DNA of 64,000 nt from Sphingobacteriales bacterium (GTDB taxonomy: Bacteria; Bacteroidota; Bacteroidia; Sphingobacteriales; Sphingobacteriaceae), in assembly GCA_004293485.1 (NCBI GenBank), contig RDYW01000039.1:1-64000 (forward strand), given 5' to 3'. The translations under genes were made by a program, and so were the position numbers. Positions 597 to 56,031 of this stretch are shown here, piece by piece (position 1 is the first letter of the stretch; each line of letters starts with the position of its first letter). The notes beneath the pieces are model-generated. The model worked only from the letters and a program-made list of their open reading frames with translations, did not search any database and was not told where the DNA came from.

Positions 597-627
597 AAAG
601 CCGATAAATAAAATTATCGGCTTTTTT
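597..627 (+). terminator. rho-independent terminator-like hairpin
   Basis: A nine-base stem (599-607 with 614-622) with a six-base loop is followed by a T-run. No plus-strand gene ends just upstream, so it may end a transcript of the preceding repeat element or insulate the higBA promoter. Confidence 0.6.
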
Positions 628-684
628 GTTTTCTATTAGAAAACTTTATTACCTTTGTTTAAATCAAAAAACTTTATACAATTA

Positions 685-993
685 ATGTTTAATATCATTA
701 ACCGAAAAACACTTTTAGAATACGGCAAAAAATATCCAGCTGCCAAAAATGCGTTATCCGAATGGTATTATGAGTTTTTAGATTGCGATTTTAAAACTTT
801 TCAGGAGTTAAAAGCGGTTTATGCCAATGCGAGTATAGTGAGTGATAATCGTGTGGTAATAAACATAATGGGCAATCATTATCGCCTAGTAATAAGGGTG
901 TTATTTTTGTACAAGACTATACAGATTAAATGGTTTGGTACACACGCAGAGTACGATAAAATAAATGTTAAAAATATAAAATTTAAAAACTAA
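685..993 (+). CDS. higB: HigB-family mRNA interferase toxin
   Basis: Toxin of a type II toxin-antitoxin pair, related to RelE and expected to cleave mRNA on the ribosome. The reading frame is open from a TTG at 655, but the ATG at 685 gives the normal HigB start (MFNIINRKTLLEYGKKYP), so I chose it; the product is about 102 residues, usual for the family. Family features seen are an early ALSEWYYE stretch, the VVINIMGNHYRLVIRV core and the C-terminal WFGTHAEYDKI motif. It is followed after 3 bases by the antitoxin gene, in the toxin-first order typical of higBA. The family call is strong; activity is not shown by sequence. Confidence 0.85.
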   Translation: MFNIINRKTLLEYGKKYPAAKNALSEWYYEFLDCDFKTFQELKAVYANASIVSDNRVVINIMGNHYRLVIRVLFLYKTIQIKWFGTHAEYDKINVKNIKFKN

Positions 994-996
994 GCC

Positions 997-1353
997 ATGC
1001 ATTTACAAATTATAAAAACCGAAAACGAATATCAAAATTTATTAAATTGGGTAGATACTCAATTTGATTTAGGCTACGCACCAGATACCGCCGAAGGCGA
1101 AAAACTACAAATTGCCTTACTACTTATTAAACAATACGAGGATGCAAATTACGCTATACCTGTACCTAATGCTTTAGCAGTTGTAAAATTAAAAATGGAA
1201 GAAAACGGTTTACAAAACAAAGATTTGGTTAGCTGGTTAGGTAGCAAAGGTTATGTATCGGCAATTTTAAACGGCAAAAAACCGCTTACCTTAAATATTG
1301 CAAGGCAATTGCATCAAAAATTAGGCATACCAGCAGCGGTGCTGTTGGCTTAG
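997..1353 (+). CDS. higA: HigA-family antitoxin, XRE helix-turn-helix
   Basis: Antitoxin partner of the toxin just upstream. It should bind the toxin and repress the operon through its helix-turn-helix. The 118-residue product has an acidic N-terminal half (toxin-binding region, about residues 1-60) and a C-terminal XRE-like HTH around residues 70-112, with KDLVSWLGSKGYVSAILNGKK matching the family pattern for recognition of the operator. Start ATG at 997 lies 3 bases after the higB stop, so the pair is co-transcribed. The gene converges on a broken DUF2442 gene. Confidence 0.85.
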   Translation: MHLQIIKTENEYQNLLNWVDTQFDLGYAPDTAEGEKLQIALLLIKQYEDANYAIPVPNALAVVKLKMEENGLQNKDLVSWLGSKGYVSAILNGKKPLTLNIARQLHQKLGIPAAVLLA

Positions 1354-1362
1354 GTTGTAAAT

Positions 1363-1577
1363 TTAAAACTGCCTTTGGTGCAAATCCCAAATAGGAAAAC
1401 ATAGCTCATAATCGTTCCAAACAATATCTCCGTATTGGATATTAAAGTTTTTGAAAATTGTTTTATCCAAGTGTATTTCCTAGTCATATTGTTTGTTGCT
1501 GAAGATAAAAAAATTTCAAAATCAATAACCTTAATTATGCCATCCGAAAATTCAAAACTGATGGTATAATCTTTCAA
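1363..1577 (-). pseudogene. frameshifted DUF2442-like protein
   Basis: The first half reads DYTISFEFSDGIIKVIDFE and continues to MTRK in one frame. A different frame then gives HLDKTIFKNFNIQYGDIVW followed by NDYELCFPIWDLHQ and a stop at 1363-1365. Joined, the two halves match the DUF2442 pattern (short Bacteroidota and cyanobacterial proteins, often beside toxin-antitoxin genes). Restoring one A in the homopolymer at plus-strand 1476-1478 would rejoin the frames, so this is a single-base deletion or a sequencing error. The start is unclear: a TTG at 1577, with the frame open further upstream but no ATG. The function of the family is unknown. Confidence 0.6.
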
Positions 1578-2014
1578 ATAATTTGCTTTTAACCTAAGTT
1601 CGATAATTATTTTCGATAAAATTAAGTAATCAACCTCTTATTATATATATATTTAAGTGTTTGAAATTCAACTATTTATTTAAAAAATAACGCTAATTAC
1701 TTATTAAATTTTACGAAGCAATGGCTTTTCGGTTTATCATTTTTTAAAATGTTGAATTTTTGTAGGGTGTAGGTGGGTTTACAGTTGATTTATGAACTAA
1801 ACTGCCAAATTTAAATTTACTTCAAAAATGCTTCTTATTTATAATAGTAGTTGTTAGCCCTATTTAATTGTAAACATTAGTAATACTACATTATTTAACA
1901 AGCAAGCTACGCTGTTTTACTTGTACAGTAATGTTAATAAAAGTTTGTTTTATTGTATTTTAGTAAGCGTTTCACCCCGAAAGTGGTTTACTAAATTGTA
2001 CTTAAAAAGCTAAT
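1578..2014. other. AT-rich intergenic stretch without recognisable gene
   Basis: No open frame with family features, no RNA gene and no strong hairpin was seen. It separates the accessory higBA patch from the core genes. Confidence 0.5.
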
Positions 2015-2263
2015 TTATTTAACTTCTTCGTAAGCAATAAAATCGTTGTTATCTTTTACTTTAGGTTGTTTTTTTGCATTAGGGGGTATGTAATCAACAC
2101 TAATAGTACCTTCGGGTTTATGCTTTGCTTGGTTTTGTGCATCCATGTTGTTTTGCATTTTACTTGCTACTTTTTTAAATAAAAAAGGCATTAAAATTTT
2201 AGCCAGTGCTTTTATCACATACAAAATACAGATGGCTATTATCAAAATTCTTATTAATCCCAT
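2015..2263 (-). CDS. DUF4834 family small membrane protein
   Basis: A protein of about 82 residues with one N-terminal transmembrane helix (MGLIRILIIAICILYVIKAL), then a basic segment (MPFLFKKVASKMQ) and a charged soluble tail ending in a YEEVK motif. This arrangement matches the Bacteroidota-specific DUF4834 family, whose function is unknown. An upstream ATG at 2290 would add nine residues, but 2263 gives the conserved MGL start. It is divergent from rbfA, so the 200-bp gap probably holds both promoters. Confidence 0.65.
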   Translation of the reverse strand: MGLIRILIIAICILYVIKALAKILMPFLFKKVASKMQNNMDAQNQAKHKPEGTISVDYIPPNAKKQPKVKDNNDFIAYEEVK

Positions 2264-2396
2264 AATTTTGCAAATATAATAATTTAACATTTTTAGAACC
2301 TAAGGGAGGGTAAATGTTACAAAAAAATTAAATTTATTTATACTTAATTAACAACTTTAACATTAAAAAAAAGGCCAAAAATGTAAGATGGAAACT

Positions 2397-2404
2397 TATA
2401 TTTG
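2397..2404 (+). promoter_or_regulatory. candidate -7 box upstream of rbfA
   Basis: TATATTTG fits the Bacteroidota TAnnTTTG -7 consensus and lies 60 bp before the chosen rbfA start. No clear -33 TTTG partner is visible at the usual distance, so this is tentative. Confidence 0.35.
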
Positions 2405-2463
2405 TGCCTAAAGCCCGTACAGTTAATGTAATTATTGGCATGGCTATTACTTCACATAAAAAT

Positions 2464-2826
2464 ATGGAATCGAAACGACAACAAAAATTTTCTAGATTGA
2501 TACAGAAAGAGTTAAGCGAAATTTTTCAACGCGATACAAACACTCTGCTTCCAAATTCGATGATAACTATTACCAAAGTGCGGGCATCGCCCGATTTGGG
2601 TACGGTACGTGTTTTTTTAAGTTTTTTTAATACCGACGACCATACTTTGGCTATAAATACCATAAACGCTCATAACAGCGAAATTAGGTATAATTTAGGT
2701 AAACGCATTAAAGACCAAGTACGTGGCATACCTCAATTAGATTTTTTTATAGATGACACAAATGAATACGTAGATAGGATAGATAAAATTTTTAACCGAA
2801 TAAATAAAGATTTGGGTGGGGTTTAA
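2464..2826 (+). CDS. rbfA: ribosome-binding factor A
   Basis: RbfA matures the 30S subunit by acting on the 5' end of 16S rRNA. The chosen start ATG at 2464 gives MESKRQQKFSRLIQKELSEI, the usual family N-terminus; the frame is open upstream from a GTG at 2404 but that extension has no family match. The product is 120 residues, normal for the family, with the KH-like fold signature ITITKVRASPDLGTVRVFLS in the middle and the conserved tail region VRGIPQLDFFIDDTNEYVDRID. Cytoplasmic. The gene stands alone; the downstream oxidoreductase starts 100 bp later. Confidence 0.9.
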   Translation: MESKRQQKFSRLIQKELSEIFQRDTNTLLPNSMITITKVRASPDLGTVRVFLSFFNTDDHTLAINTINAHNSEIRYNLGKRIKDQVRGIPQLDFFIDDTNEYVDRIDKIFNRINKDLGGV

Positions 2827-2927
2827 ATACTCGAATCAATAAATTTTTGCCAATAAATATCGAAGAATATAAATTCTAAAAAAATGTAATTTCCTTTCTG
2901 CTTACCTTTCAACTTCAAACACAAAAA

Positions 2928-4223
2928 ATGTACTTAAAAGTAGTAATTATAGGTAACGGAATTACAGGCATTACCACTGCTAGGCATATTAGAAAACTTA
3001 ACAATGCCCATATTACCGTAATATCCGACGAAACAGCCTACTTTTTTTCGCGTACCGCCCTTATGTATGTATATATGGGCCATTTAAAATTCGAGCATAC
3101 GCAACCTTACGAAAACTGGTTTTGGAAAAAAAATAAGATAAATTTGTTACAGGCAAGGGTTGATAAAATTGACTTTTTACACAAAAAAATATTGCTGAAC
3201 GATGAAAGTTTTTTAAATTATGATAAACTGATAATTGCTACTGGCTCGCTACCCCGAACGGTAGATGTACCAGGCCAGCATTTAAAAGGTGTGCAAGGTT
3301 TATACCACAAGCAAGATGTGGAACTGATGGAAAAAAACACCGCTGGCATACGCAAAGCAGTAATAATAGGTGGTGGCTTAATTGGGATTGAGATGGCCGA
3401 AATGCTACATTCGAGAAACATAGCGGTTGATTTTTTGATACGCGAACAACACTACTGGGCAAGCGTATTGCCTATACCCGAAGCCACAATGATAAGTAAG
3501 CATATTGCCGAATACCACATTAATTTACACCCCCAAACCGAGCTAAAGGAAATTATTGGCGATAAAAATGGTGCAGTAAAAAGCATCATCACTAGCGATA
3601 ATACCGAAATAGAATGCCAATTTGTAGGCATAACCATAGGCGTACAACCCAATGTAAATTTTTTAAAAAACAGCGAAATTGCTATTGATAAAGGTATTTT
3701 GGTAAACGATTTTTTAGAAACTAATATAGCCGATGTATATGCCGCAGGCGATTGTGCGCAGTTTATACATCCTAAGCATAAGCACCCCGCCATTGAGCAA
3801 TTGTGGTACACAGGTAAAATGCAAGGCGAGGCTTTAGCGCAAACAATATGTGGACATAAAACAATGTATAACAGAGGTGTATGGTTTAATTCGGCTAAGT
3901 TTTTGGCTATCGAATACCAGACCTATGGTGCTATGTTTAATACACCTGCCAAAGGCGATACTACTTTTTATTGGGAACACCCCAAAGGAAAAATTGCCAT
4001 GCGGGCTAATTTTAATGCAAGCAATTTTACCCTTACGGGTTTTAATTTTATGGGAATTCGGTTTAGGCAAGCCGTGGCCGAAAACTGGATAATAGCACAA
4101 AAAAATATTTGGGAAGTTATGGAAAATTTGAGTTTAGGATTTTTTGATCCCGAATTTTTTACCAACCACCATCAACCAATTTTAACCCAATTTTTACAGC
4201 AATATCCCAAACCTATAGCATGA
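2928..4223 (+). CDS. FAD/NAD(P)-dependent oxidoreductase
   Basis: A 431-residue pyridine nucleotide-disulfide oxidoreductase-type flavoprotein. It has an N-terminal FAD Rossmann motif (IIGNGITG, about 7-14), a central NAD(P) motif (IIGGGLIGIEMAEML, 146-160) and the C-terminal FAD-binding motif (DVYAAGDC, 269-276). The redox-active CxxxxC pair of disulfide reductases is missing, so it resembles ferredoxin reductases or NADH dehydrogenases rather than thiol reductases. Its stop overlaps the start of the membrane Fe-S protein by 4 bases (ATGA), so the two are translationally coupled and probably exchange electrons. Substrate unknown. Confidence 0.75.
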   Translation: MYLKVVIIGNGITGITTARHIRKLNNAHITVISDETAYFFSRTALMYVYMGHLKFEHTQPYENWFWKKNKINLLQARVDKIDFLHKKILLNDESFLNYDKLIIATGSLPRTVDVPGQHLKGVQGLYHKQDVELMEKNTAGIRKAVIIGGGLIGIEMAEMLHSRNIAVDFLIREQHYWASVLPIPEATMISKHIAEYHINLHPQTELKEIIGDKNGAVKSIITSDNTEIECQFVGITIGVQPNVNFLKNSEIAIDKGILVNDFLETNIADVYAAGDCAQFIHPKHKHPAIEQLWYTGKMQGEALAQTICGHKTMYNRGVWFNSAKFLAIEYQTYGAMFNTPAKGDTTFYWEHPKGKIAMRANFNASNFTLTGFNFMGIRFRQAVAENWIIAQKNIWEVMENLSLGFFDPEFFTNHHQPILTQFLQQYPKPIA

Positions 4224-5545
4224 AAAACGAACAAATATCTATGGCACTTACCGATAATTCGGAGGCAAGCACCCTGCAAAAAACAGGTATTATACTTTTT
4301 GCGTCGGGTATATTATCAGCTATTATTGCCGCTGCTGGCGCAGGCAATGCACAGCCTGTATTATTTTTTTGGTTGGCATTTGGCCTAAGCACAGCGGGCG
4401 GCTTGCTGTATGCTTATACTTATTTTAAAAATCCTATTAGCATACAAAACAATGGTATTTTTAACCACGGCATAAGCAATCGTGGCGCAATAGCTTGGTT
4501 AACAGGGCTTTTATTTACAGGATTTTATATTATTTTATATTGGTTTCCGCAATATTTAGAGGGTTTAATTAGGGCTACCGATACCCTTAGTATGTTGCTT
4601 CGTAACCGCCCTGCCGACCAATGGTTTTTATACGGCACTATTTATACCGTTGCCGTATTGGTAATGGGCATACGGTTTATAGGTAAATATAGGCATAGCC
4701 GGTACCAGGTTGTGCGTACACTTTCGGTTATGTTTTTTCAAACAGGGTTTGCCTTTTTACTGCCTGCTGTACTTTTGCGCTTAAACCAACCCGAATTTTA
4801 TTTCTCCTACTTTTGGCCTTTAAAATACAGTTACCTGTTTCCCAACGATGTAAACTATTTTTTAAACTCGGGATCCGTAGGCTATTTTATGGTTTTTTGG
4901 GGAGCCGTAATGACTTTTATTGCCACCCCTTTGCTTACCTATAATTATGGTAAAAGATGGTACTGCTCGTTTGTATGTGGCTGTGGCGGCCTGGCCGAAA
5001 CCGTAGGCGACCCTTTTAGGCAAAATTCAAACAAATCGTTACTATCTTGGAAAATAGAACGTTACAGCGTACACTCGGTGTTGGTTTTGGTAAGCCTTGC
5101 TACTATTTTGCTTTGGGTAAATTCATATACTAATGGAGCTGTGCTGGGCAATTTTTCGGGAAGCTTTGCCAAAAGTTATGGTTTTTTTATTGGTTCGATA
5201 TTTTCGGGCGTGGTAGGCACAGGCTTTTACCCTATTTTTGGTAGCCGCGTATGGTGCCGTTTTGGCTGCCCTATGGCGGCTATTTTAGGTATTTTTCAAC
5301 GCTTTAAATCCAAGTTTCGCATCACTACCAATGGTGGCCAGTGTATATCGTGTGGCAATTGCAGTACCTATTGCGAAATGGGAATTGATGTGCGGGCTTA
5401 TGCCCAAAAAGGCGAAAACATTATCAGGGCCAGTTGTGTAGGTTGTGGGATATGCTCGGCAGTGTGCCCACGTGGCGTATTAAAATTAGAAAACCTGGAC
5501 GAAAAAAGTAGATTTGAAGGCTATACCAAACCCGAAATCAATTAA
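4220..5545 (+). CDS. polytopic membrane protein with two 4Fe-4S clusters
   Basis: A 441-residue protein with about seven or eight hydrophobic helices. A cysteine motif follows one helix (CSFVCGCGG) and another lies in RFGCPM. The C-terminal ferredoxin domain has two clusters (CISCGNCSTYC at about 375-385 and CVGCGICSAVCP at 406-417). The layout resembles NapH/NosR/RdxA-type membrane ferredoxins that move electrons across or along the inner membrane. It overlaps the upstream FAD oxidoreductase by 4 bases, which suggests a flavoprotein-to-membrane electron path. The final acceptor is not visible from sequence; the adjacent glycosyltransferases do not explain it. Confidence 0.7.
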   Translation: MKNEQISMALTDNSEASTLQKTGIILFASGILSAIIAAAGAGNAQPVLFFWLAFGLSTAGGLLYAYTYFKNPISIQNNGIFNHGISNRGAIAWLTGLLFTGFYIILYWFPQYLEGLIRATDTLSMLLRNRPADQWFLYGTIYTVAVLVMGIRFIGKYRHSRYQVVRTLSVMFFQTGFAFLLPAVLLRLNQPEFYFSYFWPLKYSYLFPNDVNYFLNSGSVGYFMVFWGAVMTFIATPLLTYNYGKRWYCSFVCGCGGLAETVGDPFRQNSNKSLLSWKIERYSVHSVLVLVSLATILLWVNSYTNGAVLGNFSGSFAKSYGFFIGSIFSGVVGTGFYPIFGSRVWCRFGCPMAAILGIFQRFKSKFRITTNGGQCISCGNCSTYCEMGIDVRAYAQKGENIIRASCVGCGICSAVCPRGVLKLENLDEKSRFEGYTKPEIN

Positions 5546-5552
5546 AAATAAA

Positions 5553-6245
5553 ATGATTAAACCTTTAGTTTACGTTATCATACCCGCTTATAACGAGGAA
5601 AAATCTATAGCAAAAGTAATAGCCCATATACCTCAAAATATAGTCAGCGAAATTATTGTATGTAACAATAACTCTCATGATAATACCGCTGCAGTAGCCA
5701 CCGCCGCAGGCGCAACCGTAGTTTTCGAAGCCAAAGCAGGTTATGGCAATGCCTGCCTTAAAGGCATATCATACCTAAAAAATAAAGCCCAAGCTAATGA
5801 TATTGTGGTATTTATGGATGCCGATTTTTCGGATTATCCCGAAGAAATCATAAAAATTATTGCCCCATTGCAAGCCAATATTGCCGATGTAATAATAGGT
5901 AGTCGCAGTTTAGGTAAGCGAGAACGTGGTGCGATGACGGTACCACAAATATTTGGCAACTGGCTAGCCACGCACCTTATTTATATTTTTTACAAGGTTA
6001 AATTTACCGACCTTGGCCCATTTAGAGCCATAAAATGGGGGAAACTAATGGCCTTAAATATGCAAGATAAAACCTACGGCTTTACGGTAGAAATGCAGGT
6101 AAAATCCGCAAAACAAAAATTTATTTGCCTCGAAGTACCTGTAAATTACCGCAAACGCATTGGTACAAGTAAAATTTCGGGAACTGTAAAAGGCGTAATA
6201 TTAGCAGGCTACAAAATCATTTTTACCATATTTAAAAATATGTAG
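5553..6245 (+). CDS. family 2 glycosyltransferase, dolichyl-phosphate-mannose synthase-like
   Basis: A GT-A fold transferase of 231 residues. It starts MIKPLVYVIIPAYNEEKSIA (start ATG 5553, 7 bases after the Fe-S protein stop; the frame is open further back inside the upstream gene). It has the DxD metal/sugar-nucleotide motif DAD at 89-91 and the later GSR and LGPFRAI stretches typical of polyprenyl-phosphate glycosyltransferases. It lacks C-terminal transmembrane helices, so it is probably a soluble or peripheral enzyme charging a lipid carrier. It lies in the same run as the next glycosyltransferase (12 bases apart). Donor and acceptor are unknown. Confidence 0.8.
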   Translation: MIKPLVYVIIPAYNEEKSIAKVIAHIPQNIVSEIIVCNNNSHDNTAAVATAAGATVVFEAKAGYGNACLKGISYLKNKAQANDIVVFMDADFSDYPEEIIKIIAPLQANIADVIIGSRSLGKRERGAMTVPQIFGNWLATHLIYIFYKVKFTDLGPFRAIKWGKLMALNMQDKTYGFTVEMQVKSAKQKFICLEVPVNYRKRIGTSKISGTVKGVILAGYKIIFTIFKNM

Positions 6246-6257
6246 CTTTGCGCTTAT

Positions 6258-7709
6258 ATGTTGTTGCCCTACCTTATTTTATATGTTTATATTTTTACGC
6301 TTTCGCTGATTTTAATTTTTAGTATTGGGCAGGCTTATTTGATATATTTTTACCTTCGAAATAAAATACAAACTCCAACAAATCAAAACCTAAAACCTAT
6401 ACAACAACCTTTAGTAACGGTACAATTGCCTTTGTATAACGAGGTATATGTGGTAGCGCAATTAATTAATGCGGTATGTGCGCTTAATTATCCCATCCAA
6501 AAACTAGAAATACAAGTGCTAGACGATTCGGATGATGAATGTTACACCTTAGCACAACAATTGGTAAAAAATAAGCAAGCCCAAGGTTTTAACATACAGC
6601 ACATAAGCCGTAAAATAAATACTGGCTTTAAAGCGGGTGCCTTACAACATGGTTTACAATTGGCCAAGGGCGAGTTTATCGCTATTTTTGATGCCGACTT
6701 TATCCCGGAAAAGGAATTTTTAAACCAGCTTTTACCTTTTTTTACACCCAATGTGGGCATGGTACAAAGCCGATGGGAACATGTAAACGCTAACTATTCC
6801 TTACTTACACAAGTGCAAGCGTTTGCCTTAGATGGGCATTTTACCATCGAGCAAAGTGGCCGAAACAGTGCTGGCCTGTTTATAAATTTTAACGGTACGG
6901 CTGGTATATGGCGCAAAGCCTGTATTATAGATGCGGGTGGCTGGCAACACGATACGCTTACCGAAGATTTAGATTTAAGCTACCGAGCACAGTTAAAAGG
7001 CTGGAAATTCCACTATTTTGAAAACGTATATACGCCAGCCCAATTGCCTGCCCAACTTAACGCTTTTAAATCGCAACAGCACCGCTGGACTAAGGGAGCC
7101 ATCGAAACATCAAAAAAAATGTTAAACCCTATTTGGAAAAATAAACACCTATCGTTTAAAATTAAACTTTTTGCCACCTTACATTTAAGCAATGCGTATA
7201 ATTTTTTATTGGCTTTTATTAGTATTTTTTTAAGTGTACCCGTTTTATATATCAAAAATCAGCACTTAATTAATCCTTTTTATTTTCAAATTATCTCGGT
7301 TTTTTTGGTGGGATTTTTGGTGCTTTTGGTGTTTTACAGCATTTCATTTTTCTCGAAACGGAAAGGAGTTCTAAATTTTATTGCTTTGTTTCCAACGTTT
7401 GTTTCGGTGGCTATGGCCATGAGTTTTCATAACTCGCTTGCCGTGGTTGAAGGTATATTTGGTTTTAAGTCGCCTTTTATTCGTACGCCCAAGTTTAATA
7501 CCCAAAGTATTACACACAATAAATATGTAAACCAGCATATTCACTTTACTTTTTATATAGAGTTAATCCTGGTTTTTTACTTTTTGGCAGCTATATATTT
7601 AGGGTTTTATTACCATGATTTTGGCTTACTTCCCTTTCATATTATGCTATGTTTCGGTTTTTTTACCTTGGTTTTTTATGGCTTAAAGCAAAGGTATATA
7701 AGGTGCTGA
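6258..7709 (+). CDS. membrane family 2 glycosyltransferase, cellulose-synthase-like
   Basis: A 483-residue processive-type glycosyltransferase. It has one N-terminal helix (about 5-32), the D,D,D,QxxRW catalytic series (DDSDD at 89-93, DAD at 145-147, TED at 235-237, QQHRW at 273-277) and about four C-terminal helices. These motifs are shared by cellulose synthases and glucomannan, mannosyl and ceramide transferases; the protein is shorter than BcsA and lacks a PilZ domain. It is last in the plus-strand run that begins with the FAD oxidoreductase. A polysaccharide or glycolipid product is likely but not identifiable. Confidence 0.8.
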   Translation: MLLPYLILYVYIFTLSLILIFSIGQAYLIYFYLRNKIQTPTNQNLKPIQQPLVTVQLPLYNEVYVVAQLINAVCALNYPIQKLEIQVLDDSDDECYTLAQQLVKNKQAQGFNIQHISRKINTGFKAGALQHGLQLAKGEFIAIFDADFIPEKEFLNQLLPFFTPNVGMVQSRWEHVNANYSLLTQVQAFALDGHFTIEQSGRNSAGLFINFNGTAGIWRKACIIDAGGWQHDTLTEDLDLSYRAQLKGWKFHYFENVYTPAQLPAQLNAFKSQQHRWTKGAIETSKKMLNPIWKNKHLSFKIKLFATLHLSNAYNFLLAFISIFLSVPVLYIKNQHLINPFYFQIISVFLVGFLVLLVFYSISFFSKRKGVLNFIALFPTFVSVAMAMSFHNSLAVVEGIFGFKSPFIRTPKFNTQSITHNKYVNQHIHFTFYIELILVFYFLAAIYLGFYYHDFGLLPFHIMLCFGFFTLVFYGLKQRYIRC

Positions 7710-7755
7710 TAAAAAAAAATGAAAGCAGCGAAATTTTTTATACGATGCTTTCTAG

Positions 7756-7795
7756 TATCTTAAAGTATTTATAAGAATATAAATACTTTAAGATA
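7756..7795. repeat. perfect 18-bp inverted repeat with 4-nt loop
   Basis: Bases 7756-7773 pair exactly with 7778-7795 around an AGAA loop, 46 bp after the glycosyltransferase stop. The stem is AT-rich and lacks a T-run, so it may act as a 3' mRNA-stabilising hairpin or a weak terminator. Confidence 0.6.
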
Positions 7796-7924
7796 TAATA
7801 TATACAACATACTTAAAAAATATTTAGAGGCATTTTTTAAAACAAACTTTCATTAATTCTATGGCGCATGCTTAATTTTTTACGCCAATAGGGTTTCTGT
7901 TATAATAATGTTGAGTATATCTTA

Positions 7925-8290
7925 TAGCTTGTTAGATGGTTGGTAGTAGCCCCTTTTGTTCCCAAGTTAATCTTTTAACACAGTCGGTTAAAAAACCAAT
8001 GTCGATGCTTCGCTGTCGGTAACAGATAGTTCAAGAGTTTCTAAATCTTTTACAATAAACTTTTAATTCATTGATTAGTTAATTGTCGGTATTTGATTGA
8101 TTTAAAAAAACGTTAGTAAATATTTCTTTAAAATTAGCCAAATCTTTTTTTAAAATATCAAAAAGTACAGAACTATAAAAGGTTTCTTTGTGTACAAAAG
8201 CTATACATTTTCGCTTTTCGGGATAAAAAAATGACCATTCCAATTTTTTAAAGAAATTGATGGAAGCTTTGTTTTAAGATTAATAAATTT
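7925..8290 (-). pseudogene. decayed gene of unknown family
   Basis: On the minus strand one frame reads LEWSFFYPEKRKCIAFVHKE and continues with about 35 more plausible codons to a stop. Further coding-like stretches then appear in other frames (DLETLELSVTDSEAST, then TDCVKRLTWEQKGLLPT) interrupted by stops. The amino acid makeup and the order of pieces suggest a single small gene broken by several frameshifts and stops. I do not recognise the family with confidence. The flanking 8290-8592 is AT-rich and shows nothing. Confidence 0.35.
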
Positions 8291-8592
8291 TGATAATTTT
8301 AACGAACAAAATAGAGTTAAAATAAATAAAAATAACTTAAGTATTTGGTTTATTTTAACGCTATTTTCCTTTACGTTTTTTATAATTTGCCATTGTTTAA
8401 CTACAATTGCACAATTTTATAAATAACACAAAAACTAAAATAACTTAAACAATTTAAAAAATATACTTACAAAAACTTAAATTTTCGCTACAATATAGTT
8501 TAAATAGCTTAGCTAACAGTTATTTAATTTTTACATTAACTACAAATAATTTATAGTTTCAAAATTCTAACTCAAAAATCACAAATCCTGTA

Positions 8593-9903
8593 TCACAAAA
8601 CCTGCAGACCCTCTTTATAAACCTTTAAACATCTTTCGCGGGCTTGTTTATGTTCTACAATTGGTTTTGGGTATATAAAAGCATCGCCAAACTCGGGTAT
8701 CCATTTTTTAATATACAGCAAGTCTTTATCAAATTTTTTAATTTGTTCGGCAGGATTAAAAATTCTAAAATACGGGGCGGCATCTACCCCACTTCCCGCA
8801 GCCCACTGCCAGCCTCCTACATTGCTCGATAATTCAAAATCTAAAAGTTTTTTGGCAAAATATCGCTCGCCCCAGCGCCAATCTATCAATAAATGTTTGG
8901 TTAAAAAGCTTGCAACCACCATACGCACACGGTTATGCATAAAACCTGTACGGTTAAGTTGACGCATACCAGCATCTACCATGGGGTACCCAGTTTTACC
9001 AGCGCACCATGCTTCAAACTCTTGAGGGTTATTGCGCCATTTAATATTATCGTATTCGGGCCTAAAACTTTGCCTAGCCGAATGAGGGAAATGCCACAAA
9101 ATCGAAAAATAAAAATCACGCCATATAAGTTCGTTTAACCATACTTCGCTTGCATTTTTTGCCACATTTACCAGTTGCCTAATGCTAAGTGTACCAAACC
9201 TTAAATGCAGGCTAATGTGCGATGTAGCGTCTTTTGCAGGAAAATCTCTATCACGAGCATAATTTTTTAAAATAGGGGCATAAATTTTATTGGGTAAGGC
9301 AAGCGAACTTTTTTCGAAACCCATGGTTTGTAACGTAGGCATTGGGCTTGTTGTAGTATGATAGAGGTTACCCAACAGATTTTCTGATGGGTAAGGTTTT
9401 GTATAATAAGCGTTTAGTTTTTCAAGCCATTTGCGTTTATAAGGCGTAAACACAACATAAGGCTTGCCATCGTCTTTGGTTACTTCATCTTTTTCAAATA
9501 TAGCTTGATCTTTATACGTTTTAAATATAATGTTATTAAGGGCAAATAATTTTGCTAATTCAGCATCTCTTTGTAGGGCGTAGGGTTCGTAATCGTGGTT
9601 GGTAAATACAGCTGATATGTGGTATGTAGCCATTAATTTTTCCCAAATTTGGGCGGGGTAACCATACTCCACACACACATCCGAATGGTAATTTGTACAC
9701 TGGTGTTTTAGTTTTTCAATTTCTTGATGCAAAAATGTTAGCCTTGCATCATGTTTGTCTTCAAGTTTATCTAGTATGTTTTTATCAAAAATAAACAGCG
9801 GTAATACAGGTTTATCGGCTTTTAAGGCCCTATATAATGCAGCGTTATCGGTTAAGCGTAAATCTCGCCTAAACCAAAATACGTTAATATTTTGTTTAAC
9901 CAT
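8593..9903 (-). CDS. phrB: deoxyribodipyrimidine photolyase / cryptochrome family
   Basis: A flavoprotein that uses light to repair UV-induced pyrimidine dimers. It has 436 residues, with an N-terminal alpha/beta antenna domain (NVFWFRRDLRLTDNAALYRA at about 6-25) and a C-terminal FAD-binding helical domain with LNELIWRDFYFSILW, the QLNRTGFMHNRVRM stretch and the conserved DWRWGERYFAKKLLDFELSS and NVGGWQWAAGSG segments. These are hallmarks of class I CPD photolyases; a cryptochrome role cannot be ruled out by eye. It overlaps the upstream epimerase gene by 8 bases, so the two form an operon. Confidence 0.88.
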   Translation of the reverse strand: MVKQNINVFWFRRDLRLTDNAALYRALKADKPVLPLFIFDKNILDKLEDKHDARLTFLHQEIEKLKHQCTNYHSDVCVEYGYPAQIWEKLMATYHISAVFTNHDYEPYALQRDAELAKLFALNNIIFKTYKDQAIFEKDEVTKDDGKPYVVFTPYKRKWLEKLNAYYTKPYPSENLLGNLYHTTTSPMPTLQTMGFEKSSLALPNKIYAPILKNYARDRDFPAKDATSHISLHLRFGTLSIRQLVNVAKNASEVWLNELIWRDFYFSILWHFPHSARQSFRPEYDNIKWRNNPQEFEAWCAGKTGYPMVDAGMRQLNRTGFMHNRVRMVVASFLTKHLLIDWRWGERYFAKKLLDFELSSNVGGWQWAAGSGVDAAPYFRIFNPAEQIKKFDKDLLYIKKWIPEFGDAFIYPKPIVEHKQARERCLKVYKEGLQVL

Positions 9904-13171: not shown

Positions 13172-14455
13172 ATGCAAAAATTACCACTCTTAATTGTTAC
13201 AACTTTTTATTTTTTATCCTGCCAAAATCCCACCAAAAAAAATACCGAAAACGCTTTTAGGCAAGCCGCCGAGTACGAACCTACCGAAGCCGTGTGGCTA
13301 TTGTACCCAAAAGTTACGCACAAAAAAAGCGAACCCATAACGGCGGTAACTTTAGAAATAATACAAGCCTTAGCACCTTACACCAACATAAAATTTGTAG
13401 TTGCCAACGATAGTTTAGAGGCTTTAGCAAAAAAATTAATTCCAGCTAACTTATTAAAAAACAGCACCGTAAGTATTTTTAAATTTCCATATAGAGAATT
13501 TTGGACAAGAGATTTTGGGCCATCGTTTTTGGTAAATGATAATGGCGAAAAGGCTATGGCCGATTTTATGTTTAACACCTGGGGCTATAACGATACCAGC
13601 GATGTAAGTGCAAAAATTGATGAGAAATTAGATGAAGCCGTTGCCAATTATTACAAAATCCCAATAATATCTACAAACATTGTAAGCGAAGGTGGCGACC
13701 ACGAAGTAAACAGTAAAGGCACATTATTACTGGTTGAAGCCGTAGAAAAACACCGCAACCCAGGCCAAACATTAAACGAAATTGCCGCCGAATGTAAACG
13801 CGTTTTGGGCGTTACCAAAGTTATTTGGCTAAAACAAGGGGTACGCGACGATGATAACTCCACCTTCGGTAAAATTGAAGGCCCCGATAAAAAAATGTTT
13901 TATACAGTACTTACCACCAATGGCCACGTAGATGAGTTTGCCCGTTTTGTAAACGATAGCACCATTTTATTGGCTTGGGTTAAACCCGAAGATAGAAAAA
14001 GTGCGGTAGAAATAGAATCGGCAAAGCGGATGGAAGTAAATTACAACATTTTAAAAAACAGTACCGACCAAAACGGTAAACCCTTTAAAATTATTAAAGT
14101 ACCTATGCCCTACCCTGTGCTAAATACCTTAAAAACAGGCGATGGCGTGTATGGTATTTTAAGCGAATTAACTTACAAAGACGGCAGCAAATTTCCGAAA
14201 GGTAAAACCATTGATGTAATTGCAGCAGCAAGTTACCTTAACTTTTTAATTGCCAACAAAGTAGTTTTAATGGCAAAATATTGGAAACCTGGTTTACCCG
14301 ATGAGATTAAAAAACGAGACGAAGAAGCATTTAATATGATACAAAACGTATTCCCCGATAAAAAAATAATTGCCATAAACACCCTTGCCGTAAACCTTGG
14401 CGGCGGCGGTATGCACTGCATAACCATTAACGAACCCAAAGCAATAAAAAAATAA
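13172..14455 (+). CDS. aguA: agmatine deiminase family lipoprotein
   Basis: Agmatine deiminase turns agmatine into N-carbamoylputrescine and ammonia. It has 427 residues. Family motifs are FWTRDFGPSF (about 110-119), SEGGDHEVNSKGTLL, GHVDEFARFV (the general acid/base His region) and the catalytic Cys in GGGGMHC (Cys 416). The first 20 residues form a signal peptide with a lipobox (FYFLSC followed by QN), so it should be a lipoprotein acting outside the cytoplasm, unlike typical AguA. It is followed after 7 bases by an amidase that would use its product. A peptidyl-arginine deiminase activity is an alternative for this superfamily. Confidence 0.8.
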   Translation: MQKLPLLIVTTFYFLSCQNPTKKNTENAFRQAAEYEPTEAVWLLYPKVTHKKSEPITAVTLEIIQALAPYTNIKFVVANDSLEALAKKLIPANLLKNSTVSIFKFPYREFWTRDFGPSFLVNDNGEKAMADFMFNTWGYNDTSDVSAKIDEKLDEAVANYYKIPIISTNIVSEGGDHEVNSKGTLLLVEAVEKHRNPGQTLNEIAAECKRVLGVTKVIWLKQGVRDDDNSTFGKIEGPDKKMFYTVLTTNGHVDEFARFVNDSTILLAWVKPEDRKSAVEIESAKRMEVNYNILKNSTDQNGKPFKIIKVPMPYPVLNTLKTGDGVYGILSELTYKDGSKFPKGKTIDVIAAASYLNFLIANKVVLMAKYWKPGLPDEIKKRDEEAFNMIQNVFPDKKIIAINTLAVNLGGGGMHCITINEPKAIKK

Positions 14456-35396: not shown

Positions 35397-35807
35397 ATGT
35401 ATCCAGAATATTTAGTTGCCCCCATGCGTAGCGATTTAACAAATGCGGGATTTGAAGATTTAAAATCGGCCGAAGCCGTAAAAAACGCTATTGAAGCCAC
35501 AGGTACTACCTTTGTTGTTGTAAATTCGGTATGTGGTTGTGCCGCAGCCAATGCCCGACCAGCTGCCAAAATAGCCGCTTCGGGTAAACACAAGCCCGAT
35601 AAATTAATTACCGTTTTTGCAGGCGTAGAAAAAGATGCCGTAAATGCAGCCCGAAATTTTATGGCTCCATACCCACCATCATCACCCTCTATGGCCTTAT
35701 TTAAAAATGGTAAATTGGTACACATTATCGAACGCCACCAAATAGAAGGCCGCCCAGCTCAAATGATAGCCGATAACTTAGCCAATGCCTTTGAGCAGTA
35801 TTGCTAG
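35397..35807 (+). CDS. bacilliredoxin BrxA/BrxB family (YphP/YqiW)
   Basis: A 136-residue thioredoxin-fold protein with the CGC redox motif in NSVCGCAAANARPA (about 46-59). Bacilliredoxins remove bacillithiol from S-bacillithiolated proteins, and some Bacteroidota make bacillithiol, so a low-molecular-weight thiol role is plausible. The N-terminal MYPEYLVAPMRSDLTNAGFE and C-terminal HHQIEG-like segment (ERHQIEGRPAQMIA) match the family. Position after cysE-cysM fits thiol metabolism, but a 124-bp gap separates them. Confidence 0.85.
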   Translation: MYPEYLVAPMRSDLTNAGFEDLKSAEAVKNAIEATGTTFVVVNSVCGCAAANARPAAKIAASGKHKPDKLITVFAGVEKDAVNAARNFMAPYPPSSPSMALFKNGKLVHIIERHQIEGRPAQMIADNLANAFEQYC

Positions 35808-49857: not shown

Positions 49858-50481
49858 TTAAATATGTGCAAAGTTTTGTAATAGTTTTTCGCCAGCTTCG
49901 CCCGATTTTTCGGGATGAAACTGTACGCCATAAAAGTTATTTTTTTGTATTGCTGCTGCAAAAATGTTGCCATAATTACAACTAGCGATGGTAAAATTAG
50001 TATTAAATTCTATAAAATAAGAGTGTACAAAATAAAAGTAAGTTTCGTTGGCTATTTGTGCAAACAATTTATTATTTGGATTAATAGAAACATTATTCCA
50101 GCCTATATGCGGTACTTTTTTTGATATTTGGGTATTAAAGCGTAAAGTTTTTATTGGGATAATGCCCGTCATTTCCGAGTTTCCTTCTTCGGAATAATTG
50201 GTTATCAACTGCATACCTACACAAATACCCAAAACCGGCTTGCTTAGCGCCTTAATGGAAGGCAATAAACCAGTATCAATTAATTTTTGCATGGCTGCAC
50301 CCGCGTGGCCTACTCCTGGGATGATGATATGCGTATAATTATCAAAATCTTGTGCTTGGTTTATCATTCCGTAAGGTAAAGTCAACCTATCTAAAGCCGC
50401 TTTTAACGAAAATATATTGCCTGCGCCATAATTTACTATGCCTATTTTTGGGTTGGATACTTGTTGGGGAAGATTGTTCAT
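49858..50481 (-). CDS. hisH: imidazole glycerol phosphate synthase, glutamine amidotransferase subunit
   Basis: Releases ammonia from glutamine and channels it to HisF. A 207-residue class I glutamine amidotransferase with the start IGIVNYGAGNIFSLKAALDR, the nucleophile Cys in GICVGMQLI and the His-Glu pair in QFHPEKSGEAG. The VPHIGWNNVSIN segment is HisH-specific. hisH-hisA-hisF are packed tightly, while 80 bases separate hisH from the ATPase gene upstream. Confidence 0.92.
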   Translation of the reverse strand: MNNLPQQVSNPKIGIVNYGAGNIFSLKAALDRLTLPYGMINQAQDFDNYTHIIIPGVGHAGAAMQKLIDTGLLPSIKALSKPVLGICVGMQLITNYSEEGNSEMTGIIPIKTLRFNTQISKKVPHIGWNNVSINPNNKLFAQIANETYFYFVHSYFIEFNTNFTIASCNYGNIFAAAIQKNNFYGVQFHPEKSGEAGEKLLQNFAHI

Positions 50482-50561
50482 TTTTTGTTTGGGCTATGGC
50501 CGATTTTATAAAACATATTCTTGCTGTATTGAATGCAATCCATACTTATGTTAAATTTTTT

Positions 50562-52271
50562 CTACTTAATAATTTTGTACATTAAATCTAATTTTTCCAC
50601 TATTTCTTTATCTATATTATTTGGTTCAAGAAGGTTAATAAGTTGGTAATAATCTCGCTTGTAAAAATCTTGTGGCAAATCCAGTTGTTTGTAAAATTCA
50701 TTAAAAATCATATCGAGCCATTCACTACTTAATTTAGCATCGGCCCACCATGGGTGGTTTAAATTTCGAAGATATAACGGCAAAGTACATAACTCGATAC
50801 TGTTTTGCATTTTTTCTGTTAATGTATTAATTTCGAAATGTTTATGTTTAGCATTAAGCGATTGGGCATATTCAATTAAAATTTGAGGACTTGCAAAATA
50901 ATTTTCTATTTCTCTTTTTTTCCAATATACCACATTTAAGGCTTTTATATCTTCTACATTTTTTTCTATTTTATCAAATAATGCAAGTGCTTTTAAATCA
51001 GGGAAAAACTCTTTTAAGGCTTTATAATTTTGAACGGCAGTATTTGGTACATTATCGCCCGTATATTGTACGTTGGCTAATGTTAAAAGAGGTGTAATTT
51101 TATGGTTTAGTTTTTTTGCAAATTGAATAAGCATTTGTAAATCGGTTGAACCTTCAACGTACAAAACGTGTTTTTTTTGTTTGGCTAAATAGTACTTTTT
51201 CCACCCAATTTCGGTTAATGCTTTTTTAATATGTTTTAACGATTGGCTGTTGGCTGCAGTATTTAACTCAATAGCTTGGTTTTCTATTAACGCAATTACT
51301 TTTGAAGCATCGGCAGCTTCATCTAACACCACCTCGGAGTGTGAGGCAATAATAATTTGGGTATTATTTTGATTTGCCAATTCATTAATTAATTGAAATG
51401 CTTGCCTTTGCCTTATAACTTCAAGGTGAGCATCGGGCTCATCAAGCAGTAAAATAGTGTTAGGCGATGCAAACATATAGGCTAATAAAAGCAGCATTTG
51501 CTGAAAACCACGCCCACCCGAAGAAATATCGTAGCGAATTTTATTTTCGATATACTCTAACTGTATGGTGCCATTTATTTTTATAAACTCGGGTTTTTGC
51601 AACGCTGCACCAAACATTGATTTGATAGCTTCACAAAGTTTCTCCCAGTTTTCTTCGGTATTTAATTTAGCAGTTTCGGGATACAAAACTTCGTAACATA
51701 TATTTCTAAGCACTTCGGCGGTTTTACCCTCGCCAAGTCGCCTATCAATTGCTCCTTGTTGCAACTTATCTTCAACCGATGATATACCCGACATGGGTTG
51801 CAAAAAACCGAAATGAATGCCATTATCGTTTTCGTACAAATTGGCAATTTGTTTAAGTCCGGTAACTATTCTACAAGTAAACGATTCGGCATTGGTAAAT
51901 GTAAACTCTACTTTACAACTCCATTTTATGCCTTTATTTTCACCCTCTAATTCTATTTCTAATTTTATGTGTTGTGTTTTGTTTTCAATAGAATGTTCGG
52001 TTACTTTTTTATCTCTCCATAAAAATCGAGCATCAGATATGGGGCTGTTTAATAAATCTTTTCGGTTGATAACTACAAAACCACGCCTATCTAAATTGTT
52101 TTTTTTATGCGCAATAAGATAATTAGTAACACCTATTTCCCACAAACACAATGCCTGAAAAATAGTGGATTTACCAGAATTATTGGGTCCAATAATAACC
52201 AATGTTTGCGATAAAGGAAAAGCTACGTTTTCCAATTTCTTAAAATTGTTAATAATAATTCTTGTTATCAT
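50562..52271 (-). CDS. AAA ATPase with OLD-like Toprim domain
   Basis: A 569-residue SMC/RecF-like ATPase: Walker A IGPNNSGKSTIFQAL (about 28-42), signature ISSGGRGFQQMLLL, Walker B ILLLDEPDAHLEVIRQ and switch IIASHSEVVLDEA. A C-terminal Toprim-like region has the conserved Glu in VLYVEGSTDLQML, but the DxD pair reads FDKIE, with only the first Asp kept, and then KKREIENY. Relatives include OLD nucleases and Gabija GajA; here there is no helicase or other partner. It sits inside the his operon between hisB and hisH. DNA repair, phage defence or another role is possible; nuclease activity is doubtful. Confidence 0.7.
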   Translation of the reverse strand: MITRIIINNFKKLENVAFPLSQTLVIIGPNNSGKSTIFQALCLWEIGVTNYLIAHKKNNLDRRGFVVINRKDLLNSPISDARFLWRDKKVTEHSIENKTQHIKLEIELEGENKGIKWSCKVEFTFTNAESFTCRIVTGLKQIANLYENDNGIHFGFLQPMSGISSVEDKLQQGAIDRRLGEGKTAEVLRNICYEVLYPETAKLNTEENWEKLCEAIKSMFGAALQKPEFIKINGTIQLEYIENKIRYDISSGGRGFQQMLLLLAYMFASPNTILLLDEPDAHLEVIRQRQAFQLINELANQNNTQIIIASHSEVVLDEAADASKVIALIENQAIELNTAANSQSLKHIKKALTEIGWKKYYLAKQKKHVLYVEGSTDLQMLIQFAKKLNHKITPLLTLANVQYTGDNVPNTAVQNYKALKEFFPDLKALALFDKIEKNVEDIKALNVVYWKKREIENYFASPQILIEYAQSLNAKHKHFEINTLTEKMQNSIELCTLPLYLRNLNHPWWADAKLSSEWLDMIFNEFYKQLDLPQDFYKRDYYQLINLLEPNNIDKEIVEKLDLMYKIIK

Positions 52272-52320
52272 TTTTTAATATCCTACCAAAACTACAATAT
52301 TTTTTGGCTTTCGCCGATTT

Positions 52321-53514
52321 TTACAGCATACCTTTAGTACTAGGCAATTTCATATTATTTATATCTTGCTTTACGGCCATTTTAATGGCTTTGGCAAAGG
52401 CCTTAAATATGGCTTCAATTTTATGGTGTTCGTTATCGCCTTCGGCTTTTATGTTTAGGTTACATTTACTGGCATCCGAAAACGATTTAAAAAAATGAAA
52501 AAACATTTCGGTGGGCATATCTCCTACTTTTTCTCGTTTAAATTCGGCATCCCACACTATCCAGTTTCGTCCGCCAAAATCCAAGGCTACTTGTGCCAAG
52601 CAATCGTCCATAGGTAGGCAAAATCCGTACCTTTCTATACCACGTTTATCGCCAAGGGTGGTTAAAAAAGCTTCGCCAAGGGCAATGCCCGTATCTTCAA
52701 TGGTGTGGTGCTCATCAATATGTAAATCGCCTTGGGCTTTTATGGTTAGGCCTAAATTACCGTGGCGGGCAATTTGTTCGAGCATGTGGTCAAAAAAATG
52801 CAGGCCTGTTACAATCTCGTTTTTGCCCTCGCCATCTAAATTTAGCTTTATGTAAATATCGGTTTCTTTGGTGGTGCGGCGGTGTTCGGTTTGGCGTGTT
52901 CCCAGTTTTAAAAATTGGTAAATATTTTGCCAAGCTCCGTTCTCAAATTTATCAACACCAAAATTAGAGTTAACTGTTTTGGCTATATATTGCTGTATAT
53001 TGGCTACTTGGTTATGGGTTTCGGTGGCACCTAGGTTGGTTTGGTTATCAATAAAAATACCTTTTGCACCTAGGTTTTTAGCCAAAACCATATCGTTTAG
53101 CCTATCGCCTATTACAAACGAGTTTGCTAAATCGTATTTTTCGGTATCAAAAAACTGGGTTAATAAACCTGTTTGTGGCTTGCGGGTTGGGGCGTTATCT
53201 CGAGCAAAAGTACGGTCGATAAAAATCTCATCAAAAATAATCCCTTCGTTTTTTAAGGTGTTGATGATAAAGTTTTGTACTGGCCAAAACGTATTTTCGG
53301 GATAAACAGCCGTACCTAAACCATCCTGATTGGTAACCATTACCAGTTTATAGTTTAATTCTTTAGCGATTTTGGCCAGCCAAAAAATAGCACCTGGGTA
53401 AAAGGTAAGTTTCTCGAAACTATCTATTTGCTCGTCGGCGGGTTCTAAAATTAGAGTACCATCACGGTCGATAAATAGGAGGAGTTGGGGTGGGGTGGGG
53501 TTTTGGTTATTCAT
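52321..53514 (-). CDS. hisB: bifunctional histidinol-phosphatase / imidazoleglycerol-phosphate dehydratase
   Basis: A fusion of a HAD phosphatase (about 1-170) and IGP dehydratase (about 200-397). The HAD nucleophile is FIDRDGTL (about 14-21), followed by [10 protein letters not shown] and [17 protein letters not shown]. The dehydratase part shows metal-binding repeats [30 protein letters not shown] and [14 protein letters not shown]. Thus one protein performs steps 7 and 9 of the pathway, as in Enterobacteria and many Bacteroidota. It lies 2 bases after hisC, so it is translationally linked to it. Confidence 0.93.
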
Positions 53515-54586: not shown

Positions 54587-55249
54587 CTACTTTGTTTTGT
54601 AATTGTAAATAAACTCTTGTACTGCAACGGTATCGGTGGTTTGTAGCTTTGCTAAAAATGCAGCATCAATACTAATTAGTTGGTTATAAATTGTACCCTG
54701 CTTTAAACCGTTGGCATGTTTAATTTTATAACTTAATGCCGAAAAATTTAAGTTTAAATAACTACCCTTAGCAACTTTTACTTCTTTTGTGGTATAAATT
54801 AAGTTTGGAGCTGTACCAACTGTAACCAAAGGCGGTTTAACTTTTAATAAAATATAAGTTAAATCTTGTGGATTTACTGCAATTGATTTTTGCGAGAAAA
54901 AAAGAAACTCGGTTTTTTTAATTACAAAATCACTATTTAAATCGTAGGCTTGTTTTGGGTTGCCAATTTGCGCCACACTTTTAGATTCGAAAACCAAAGT
55001 TTGCGAAGCATCAAAGGATTGGATTTGTAGGTTAAAATTGGGTTCGTTTTTTATAAAATTAGCAATGGTATCGGTGTTGGTAATTTCTCGGTTTTTGGTA
55101 AAAAGCCTAACTTCCGACTGCTTAGAGATATTTTTAAGATAAAGTTTTTCGGGAAAGAACACATATTTTTGCTCATCATTTTTTTTGCATGATGCTAAGC
55201 ATCCGCATAAAGCGAAAAGAAAAAATATTTTAGAGTTAATGTTTTTCAT
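54587..55249 (-). CDS. hypothetical lipoprotein inside the his cluster
   Basis: A 220-residue protein with a lipoprotein signal (KIFFLFALCGCLASC, lipobox LAS-C, Cys at about 21). The rest is beta-rich with no family that I recognise; segments such as DLTYILLKVKPPLVTVGTAP suggest an immunoglobulin-like fold. It lies 17 bp ahead of hisC on the same strand, so it is probably co-transcribed with the his genes, although an envelope lipoprotein has no obvious link to histidine synthesis. Confidence 0.6.
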   Translation of the reverse strand: MKNINSKIFFLFALCGCLASCKKNDEQKYVFFPEKLYLKNISKQSEVRLFTKNREITNTDTIANFIKNEPNFNLQIQSFDASQTLVFESKSVAQIGNPKQAYDLNSDFVIKKTEFLFFSQKSIAVNPQDLTYILLKVKPPLVTVGTAPNLIYTTKEVKVAKGSYLNLNFSALSYKIKHANGLKQGTIYNQLISIDAAFLAKLQTTDTVAVQEFIYNYKTK

Positions 55250-55438: not shown

Positions 55439-56031
55439 TTATTCAATTTTTTGTTGAAGTAAATTATAAATTCTTTTTTCTTTAACTTCCTTATCATTAA
55501 CGAAGCAAATAGAAATTCTTTCATTTTCAATAAACACTACGCCGCATCGCCACCAAATTGAAGAAACACTTCTTTCATAAGTATTTATAGGGAAAGGTGA
55601 AATATCTTCTAGCATATGCCGCTTCAAAAATTCTCCTTTTTCGTTGTAAAAAGCCATCACATCTAGACCGCACCCCATAGAATGTCAAATGTCACAACAA
55701 ACTTACCATTTTTAGAAACTAAGGCTTTTAGAGGTGCTATCTGATTAATTAATTTTTGTTTCCAAATTAAACTATCCTCCCCAATTTTAACTTTAAACAG
55801 CATAGCATAACAAGGCGTAATTAAAGTATCTAAATGACTAAACTTTTTTTTCTTGTTTTTTGAAGCTTCTATCCACTTAGAATATTTTTCTGGAATACTT
55901 TGTGGATAAATTCTAACATAAAATGAACTGTCGGAATTATAGTAATCTTTGATTTTTGGTAGTTCCCAAGTATCAGCCATTACCATTTCAGTCAAAAAAA
56001 ATGTAAATATGAAAACAATGTACTTCTTCAT
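55439..56031 (-). pseudogene. frameshifted secreted hypothetical protein
   Basis: Two overlapping frames appear to be one gene. The first (56031-55663) starts MKKYIVFIFTFFLTEMVMAD, a signal peptide, and runs to GKFVVTFDILWGAV. The second (55678-55439) starts MGCGLDVMAFYNEKGEFLKR and continues to KRIYNLLQQKIE. The join FVVTFD...GCGLDVMAFYN reads as continuous protein, so a single-base indel near 55679-55690 probably split it. It is either a recent pseudogene or a sequencing error. Function unknown. It lies between hisD (92 bp upstream) and the lipoprotein gene. Confidence 0.6.

Follow-up and report, generated by a model that had tools for sequence, protein, structure and literature searches.

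A predicted PARIS-like ATPase–Toprim gene of probable defensive role between hisB and hisH in a Sphingobacteriales bacterium

The gene and its setting in the his operon

The window, i.e., the whole stretch of 64,000 nucleotides analysed from a Sphingobacteriales bacterium, harbors a gene for a 569-aa protein in which an SMC/Rad50-like ATPase is fused to a Toprim-fold domain (Table 1). An initial annotation had placed this ATPase gene between hisB and hisH with two short gaps; the ORF detected there agrees with it exactly in extent, strand, and spacing. In the ORF list of the window, all three genes share one strand. The arrangement recurs on contig RDXP01000130.1 of a second assembly, that of a close relative (G016), with identical junctions and a protein 99% identical; hence, the hisB–gene–hisH junction is real and does not represent an artefact of a single assembly.

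Table 1. Coordinates of the ATPase–Toprim gene, its encoded domains and motifs, and the flanking features (window positions)
Feature	Coordinates	Strand	Remarks
OLD/PARIS-like ATPase gene	50562..52271	-	ATG start, 569 aa, P0001; single-chain ABC-ATPase plus Toprim-like
hisB	52321..53514	-	49 bp upstream of the ATPase gene; named from translation and position
hisH	49858..50481	-	80 bp downstream of the ATPase gene; named from translation and position
SMC/Rad50/PtuA-like ATPase, N-terminal, ~residues 1–340	51252..52271	-	Pfam AAA_21/AAA_15 above cut-off; VIA
GPNNSGKST, residues 28–36	52164..52190	-	G28, N30, N31, G33, K34 invariant (family alignments)
ILLLDEPDAHL, residues 273–283	51423..51455	-	D277–H282 invariant (family alignments)
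SHS, residues 310–312	51336..51344	-	H311 invariant (family alignments)
AriB/DUF4435-like Toprim domain, residues 343–569	50565..51245	-	predicted model, VIA, hhalign
Toprim E373-G-S-T-D377	51141..51155	-	both acidic residues invariant, 26/26 and 28/28 in family alignments
Altered DxD, D433-K434-I435	50967..50975	-	D433 invariant
E454-I-E456-N-Y-F	50895..50912	-	aligned with DUF4435 'SIENYL'-like motif; E456 invariant
Short repeat AAAATCGGCGAAAGCC	52306..52321	-	at hisB stop
Matching repeat AAAATCGGCCATAGCC	50492..50507	-	just before hisH

In a consensus scan, both gaps flanking the gene were free of terminator-like sites on the operon strand, and a single one was noted on the opposite strand (52304–52317). 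Considering the common strand, the short gaps, and this lack of operon-strand terminator-like sites, the gene is probably co-transcribed with the his genes. Promoter-like matches (15 vs. a shuffle mean of 16.9) showed no excess in a scan whose consensus does not cover Bacteroidota promoters.

The insert is bracketed by a 16-mer, AAAATCGGCNNNAGCC, which occurs in the window two more times (13552–13567 and 35462–35477). It is present on both sides of the insert in the window genome and in G016, and also in another relative, G004, with one mismatch on the left. The reading of this repeat as the scar of a mobile element was set aside in view of its 22 further copies elsewhere: the window genome possesses 24 exact copies, those flanking the insert included, vs. 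none of a reversed control pattern. Each of the four small-genome relatives (the window genome among them) has 21–27 copies and the other 14 genomes of the genus have 1–10. The surroundings of 20 of the 22 further copies appeared by eye to be mostly coding, and a word-frequency scan of the window returned no uptake-signal-like word. Some copies could, as seen by eye, form a GGC/GCC mini-hairpin.

The hisB–hisH junction and the spread of the gene

In the genus, the end of hisB was readable in 17 of 18 genomes (G010, 77% complete, gave none). The two his genes are uninterrupted in 13 of these 17, with hisH located 33–227 bp on; an insert is found in four, including the window genome, all 2.2–2.8 Mb in size. 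In the wider family, some HisH match was obtained in 57 of 61 genomes, and among the best 30 hisH loci read, all 29 besides the window have the hisB end within 277 bp of hisH (three of these 29 are also counted among the genus genomes). The early suggestion of a cargo gene landing in an operon is supported. The opposite prospect, raised along with it, of an insertion conserved across a wide clade and tied to his regulation did not hold, the insertion not being widely conserved and nothing linking the gene to his regulation.

The contents of the junction differ between the four genomes. In the window genome and G016, it houses the ATPase–Toprim gene. In G006 (L115:3993–5684), it is occupied by a 99-aa ORF, a PD-(D/E)XK-like ORF (PDDEXK_5 20.4 bits, under the cut-off of 26.1), and a TonB_C gene. 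In G004 (L116:5063–6776), a TonB_C gene, by eye like that of G006, is accompanied by a YoeB toxin gene (105.5 bits) and a putative antitoxin gene without a meaningful Pfam match, the latter two on the opposite strand. Since the junction is uninterrupted elsewhere and carries differing inserts in the four small genomes, it constitutes an insertion site local to one group, for which three or more sets of contents are on record.

Foreign genes in such operons are not a novelty: passages of PMC8305728 report alien or ORFan genes in Bacteroidota his operons as well as a conserved foreign gene that separates hisB from hisH in nearly all of the Rhodothermota covered there. The window gene is similar in being foreign and lodged between his genes. 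It differs in that these passages, the gene table aside, name no defence gene, and in that the content of the junction described here changes between close species. PMC3948609 reports a metagenomic clone in which his genes occur along with a relBE pair. Among the papers listed in a literature search, which was not exhaustive, none describes defence genes inside a his operon.

Several minor peculiarities of the his loci were recorded as well. Between hisD and hisC in the window, there are two further ORFs without a Pfam match (54587–55249, 220 aa, and 55663–56031, 122 aa, both on the minus strand), and two tandem relatives of the 220-aa ORF are present in G004. Downstream of hisF in G006 (L115:8000–9847), there are a 153-aa phospholipase D-looking ORF and a 432-aa transposase-like ORF, both recognized by eye. 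In the longer uninterrupted hisB–hisH gaps of L088, L092, and L094 (177–227 bp), GAGTAAAGAA-like runs recur together with CTCCTTATTC-like ones that match them; by eye, these may constitute a palindromic repeat element.

The ATPase–Toprim protein shares 83% identity with its counterpart in Arcicella rosea and 64% with that of an Ignavibacteriales metagenome-assembled genome (MAG). HisF identity between the same genomes amounts to 63% and 55%, respectively, so the identity of the gene product exceeds that of HisF, suggesting horizontal transfer. The gene was found in 2 of 18 genomes of the genus and in at least 6 of 395 sampled class genomes at E 1e-90, the window's own included; three candidates were scored per genome in the phylum and class searches, so these tallies are lower bounds. 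By these comparisons, the gene is patchily distributed and horizontally transferred. It is also under purifying selection, judging by a dN/dS of 0.17 against G016; against Arcicella, dN was 0.11 with dS near saturation (2.8). At E 1e-5, tblastn against phage records gave no match, and against plasmid records 12 matches, all below 60% identity, two of them covering 80% of the query. Of 20 matches on viral contigs, two were analysed.

Gene neighborhoods were compared for 20 loci (14 of the inner clade and six of the outer group; 218 ORFs of at least 80 aa within 7 kb, E 1e-8). No neighbor was shared between divergent inner-clade loci, and the sole inner-clade pair sharing neighbors was that of the window and G016. 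Other shared ORFs belonged to close outer-group relatives or represented single distant inner–outer matches: the AAA ATPase of L104 with L109 and L112, the methylase of L054 with L109 and L112, and an ORF of L105 with the AAA gene of L111. The gene is thus stand-alone and, as the initial annotation had it, devoid of a GajB-type partner, its flanks being his genes.

The surroundings of individual relatives are diverse. With names read from translations, the gene directly follows trpC in the trpE-G-D-C cluster of Arcicella and is situated between a DedA-like gene and dxr in the Ignavibacteriales MAG. In the inner clade, L054 (a viral contig, 1–8653) adjoins genes of the phage portal and head-tail kind and lies 2.3 kb from a DNA methyltransferase; L104 adjoins an AAA_15+HNH pair, and L099 has HsdR/HsdS-like ORFs nearby, by eye. 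In the outer group, L109 adjoins an AAA_15/AAA_21 ATPase; L112 adjoins an AAA ATPase matching that of L109 at 94%, with a DNA methylase nearby, and L111 has AAA and subtilase genes beyond an intervening 937-aa ORF. No phage or defence neighbors were seen by eye for L100, L101, L106, Arcicella, and the Ignavibacteriales MAG. The family search identified such neighbors in 2 of the 14 inner-clade loci (L054 and L104) among the neighbors searched, L102, L103, and L106 lying near contig ends.

Two domains in one chain

The N-terminal part is an SMC/Rad50/PtuA-like ATPase. Pfam assigned AAA_21 with 64.1 bits (cut-off 27), SMC_N with 60.7 (40), and AAA_15 with 58.2 (32.1). In the whole-chain structure model (mean pLDDT 86, pTM 0.67), residues 1–354 gave VIA Z scores of ~18–21 against SMC, PtuA, and Rad50 heads. 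The GPNNSGKST, ILLLDEPDAHL, and SHS stretches are Walker A, Walker B, and the H-switch, respectively. With its P-loop residues, DEPDAH motif, and H311 unvaried across the family alignments, the ATPase looks intact. The best PADLOC models for the whole protein were ATPase-only ones (NsnB, 85.7 bits; mad3, 79.4), followed by AriAB (75.4), with GajA (63.6) and Old (56.1) further down. The best NCBIfam model, MADS3, scored 46.3 bits, far under its cut-off of 420.

The C-terminal domain (residues 343–569) was folded alone, because ATPase heads filled the VIA list of the whole model; the resulting prediction had a mean pLDDT of 89.9 and a pTM of 0.86. VIA-align ranked AriB first (8ux9_A, Z 11.1, 197 aligned, 4.4 Å; 8v46_D, Z 10.0), ahead of the OLD Toprims (6nk8, 8.5; 6njx, 7.9; 6p74, 6.9), the uncharacterised archaeal 2p62 (6.8), Retron-Eco8 (6.6), and GajA (at most 6.4). 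Profile comparison by hhalign pointed in the same direction. The alignment with a profile of five DUF4435 proteins reached 92.6% (E 4.7e-7) and brought EG..D, D.D, and IENY into register, and the whole-family profile aligned with a fused AriAB at 68.8% (E 4.5e-5). The match to nine OLD-type Toprims, collected by the OLD profile, reached 16% over 23 columns, and DUF4435 against OLD gave 2%; these nine come from 12 loci, L143 (internal stop), L151, and L153 (both partial) having been left out. Foldseek behaved differently: it put TsOLD (6p74) at the top for the whole-chain model, GajA also being ranked, whereas the C-terminal model had the OLD Toprims 6njw/6nk8 at the head of its list at E ~5e-3. 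For the latter model, the top 50 contained no AriB chain and nothing at E 0.001 or better. Hence, the AriB fold, which serves as the PARIS criterion for the effector domain, is seen by VIA in the predicted model, and the Foldseek top 50 are without it.

The sole PADLOC match of the isolated C-terminal domain of the window protein was AriAB (E 3.7e-4). Among the C-terminal domains of five family members, AriAB was matched by four, AriB by two, and at least one of them by all five; in L077, one of the five, PDC-M55B outscored AriAB. Pfam DUF4435 did not match the whole window protein (E up to 10) or its C-terminal domain, and matched weakly 5 of 26 C-terminal domains in the family (best E 0.018). 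With AriAB model PDLC02981, the window protein scored 75.4 bits vs. 62.8 for the fused AriAB at L140; with PDLC02982, the latter scored 466 bits, and the model was absent from the 25 best of the window protein. An AriAB family search at E 1e-40 was uninformative (0 of 247 genomes, but also 0 of 14 controls), and DUF4435 was used instead. The C-terminal profile gave eight low-scoring PDB matches (cobalamin adenosyltransferases, YvqK 1rty; best E 0.066), which were taken as chance, and searching the PDB sequences with a DUF4435 protein did not retrieve AriB either.

Overall, two of the three methods (VIA and hhalign) place the effector domain closer to the AriB/DUF4435 domain of PARIS than to either OLD or GajA, whereas Foldseek prefers OLD. 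On the VIA and hhalign values, OLD or GajA was rejected as its closest match. In this respect, the initial OLD-type designation is to be amended.

The altered DxD motif deserves separate consideration. The early reading of it as D-K-I is correct (D433-K434-I435), and the replacement is not confined to the window gene. Among 28 family members, 13 have I or L at the third DxD position, 11 have D, and four have N; E373, D377, D433, and E456 do not vary in any of the 28, the 13 altered ones included. On the tree, the I/L members require one change (shuffle mean 9.6; 0 of 500 shuffles as low), with weak branch support (66/65) and outer groups on long branches. D-x-I/L thus appears to be a trait of the whole lineage (13/13 members) and not a mutation of the window gene alone, weak as the tree support is. 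The alignments A2–A4 and the tree do not include L001 and L005/L117, which are one contig (G016) and nearly duplicate the window; the rows of L040 (near-identical to L039) and L045 (internal stop) were dropped, and A4 is also without L039 and L052. Five of five DUF4435 relatives retain DxD, unlike the window lineage. At the same time, D-x-P stands in place of DxD in four of the nine OLD-profile proteins read (L147–L150), so this position may simply be flexible.

The initial annotation had supposed that nuclease chemistry may be lost or changed. The second Asp is indeed replaced. However, the replacement is lineage-wide, and the four other acidic residues remain invariant (28/28), for which reason nuclease loss is possible but not established; loss, weakening, or change of catalysis would all be compatible with DKI. 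As to an intact active site, sequence alignment, as distinct from a solved structure, retains four of five acidic positions, the second DxD Asp being the one altered.

Possible mode of action and competing explanations

Among known systems, fused PARIS is the closest in kind. PMC9122126 describes fused AriAB and gives a two-gene rule for PARIS: AAA_15 of at least 32 or AAA_21 of at least 27 bits, plus DUF4435 of at least 27 bits. The window protein exceeds the ATPase thresholds (58.2 and 64.1 bits) and stays below the DUF4435 one; lacking a DUF4435 match, it is not filed as PARIS by the published threshold, and its domain order, motifs, and predicted fold make it PARIS-like. It shares with fused PARIS the N-terminal ABC ATPase and the predicted AriB-fold Toprim in one chain, the EG..D and IENY motifs, and weak AriAB/AriB profile matches. 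It differs in having no DUF4435 match and no close match to either AriAB model, and in the I/L replacing the second Asp of DxD in its lineage. Gabija GajA (Class 2 OLD) is likewise an ATPase–Toprim fusion, but the window gene lacks GajB, and its Toprim is distant from that of GajA by VIA. Class 3 (retron) OLD is accompanied by a reverse transcriptase and an ncRNA; no reverse transcriptase adjoins the window gene, the flanking ORFs being his genes. IbfA/HEC-04, according to PMC12111858 a single-gene ABC ATPase plus Toprim with a demonstrated anti-phage effect, is comparable by description.

Taken together, these findings indicate a real, horizontally acquired gene, closest in kind to fused PARIS and probably defensive in role; in this sense, the early suggestion of a stand-alone defence ATPase is retained. 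More specifically, the gene may encode a single-gene anti-phage protein that was acquired horizontally, lodged in the his operon, and works like fused PARIS, a reading to which about even credence is given. The mode of working is drawn by analogy from the conserved ATPase and the predicted AriB-like domain in one chain. According to PMC11455837 and PMC12409363, the AriA oligomer of PARIS holds AriB until a phage protein, e.g., Ocr, releases it; AriB then dimerises and cuts tRNA. By the same logic, the ATPase part of the window protein would assemble into an oligomer holding the Toprim part inactive and would sense a phage protein; upon triggering, the Toprim part would be freed and would cleave RNA, probably tRNA, halting growth of the infected cell. 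With the second Asp of DxD hydrophobic in this lineage, catalysis would depend on E373, D377, D433, and E456, and the second metal site might be weaker.

A divergent Class 1 (stand-alone) OLD, i.e., an ATP-regulated DNA nuclease attacking phage DNA, is kept as a rival because Foldseek prefers OLD for both models. PMC10568477 describes Class 1 OLD (P2 Old, TsOLD) as a single gene with an ATPase followed by Toprim, which is the order and the one-gene layout seen here, and a PDB profile search also puts 6p74 first, through its ATPase part. This explanation seems unlikely, although not negligibly so: the Toprim is nearer to AriB by both VIA and hhalign and bears DKI instead of DxD, and the PADLOC Old score of the window protein (56 bits) stands against the 324–647 bits that the same model gave for its top three matches in the phylum sample.

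The Toprim may alternatively have ceased to be a nuclease and serve as a binding or dimerising module, with the work left to the ATPase, e.g., in sensing or as a clamp on phage DNA. The lineage-wide loss of the second Asp agrees with this, as does E. coli YbjD, whose Toprim is dispensable and whose ATPase is essential for the anti-phage phenotype (PMC13261556). The invariance of the four acidic residues, unexpected of a dead site, and the apparent flexibility of the position in OLD-profile proteins make such a function improbable. A housekeeping gene engaged in DNA repair or linked to histidine synthesis, and hence not in defence, could reside within a his operon or directly after trpC, as in Arcicella, and could be under strong purifying selection. 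Such a role is very hard to reconcile with the sparse occurrence of the gene in the genus and the class, and with the other relatives read, in which it is not beside his genes and in some cases adjoins phage or defence genes.

Under the favored reading of a fused-PARIS-like defence protein, a broader and more doubtful proposal can be made with reserve. The protein would represent a new single-chain PARIS-like lineage with an AriB-type Toprim departing from the canonical two-metal DxD while retaining the four invariant acidic residues, maybe with a single metal or a changed reaction. The hisB–hisH junction in one group of small-genome Bacteroidota would be an exchange site for defence-like and toxin–antitoxin genes under the expression of a biosynthetic operon. 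If true, PARIS-like immunity would extend past the published detection rule to one gene with an altered catalytic site, and the lineage would provide a natural experiment on the extent to which a defence effector requires the Toprim two-metal site. A biosynthetic operon would likewise become a cargo site for immune genes outside the classic defence islands. As a separate observation, the fused AriAB used above for comparison (L140:604–2223) is itself a genuine single-gene PARIS, from a genome of the same phylum.
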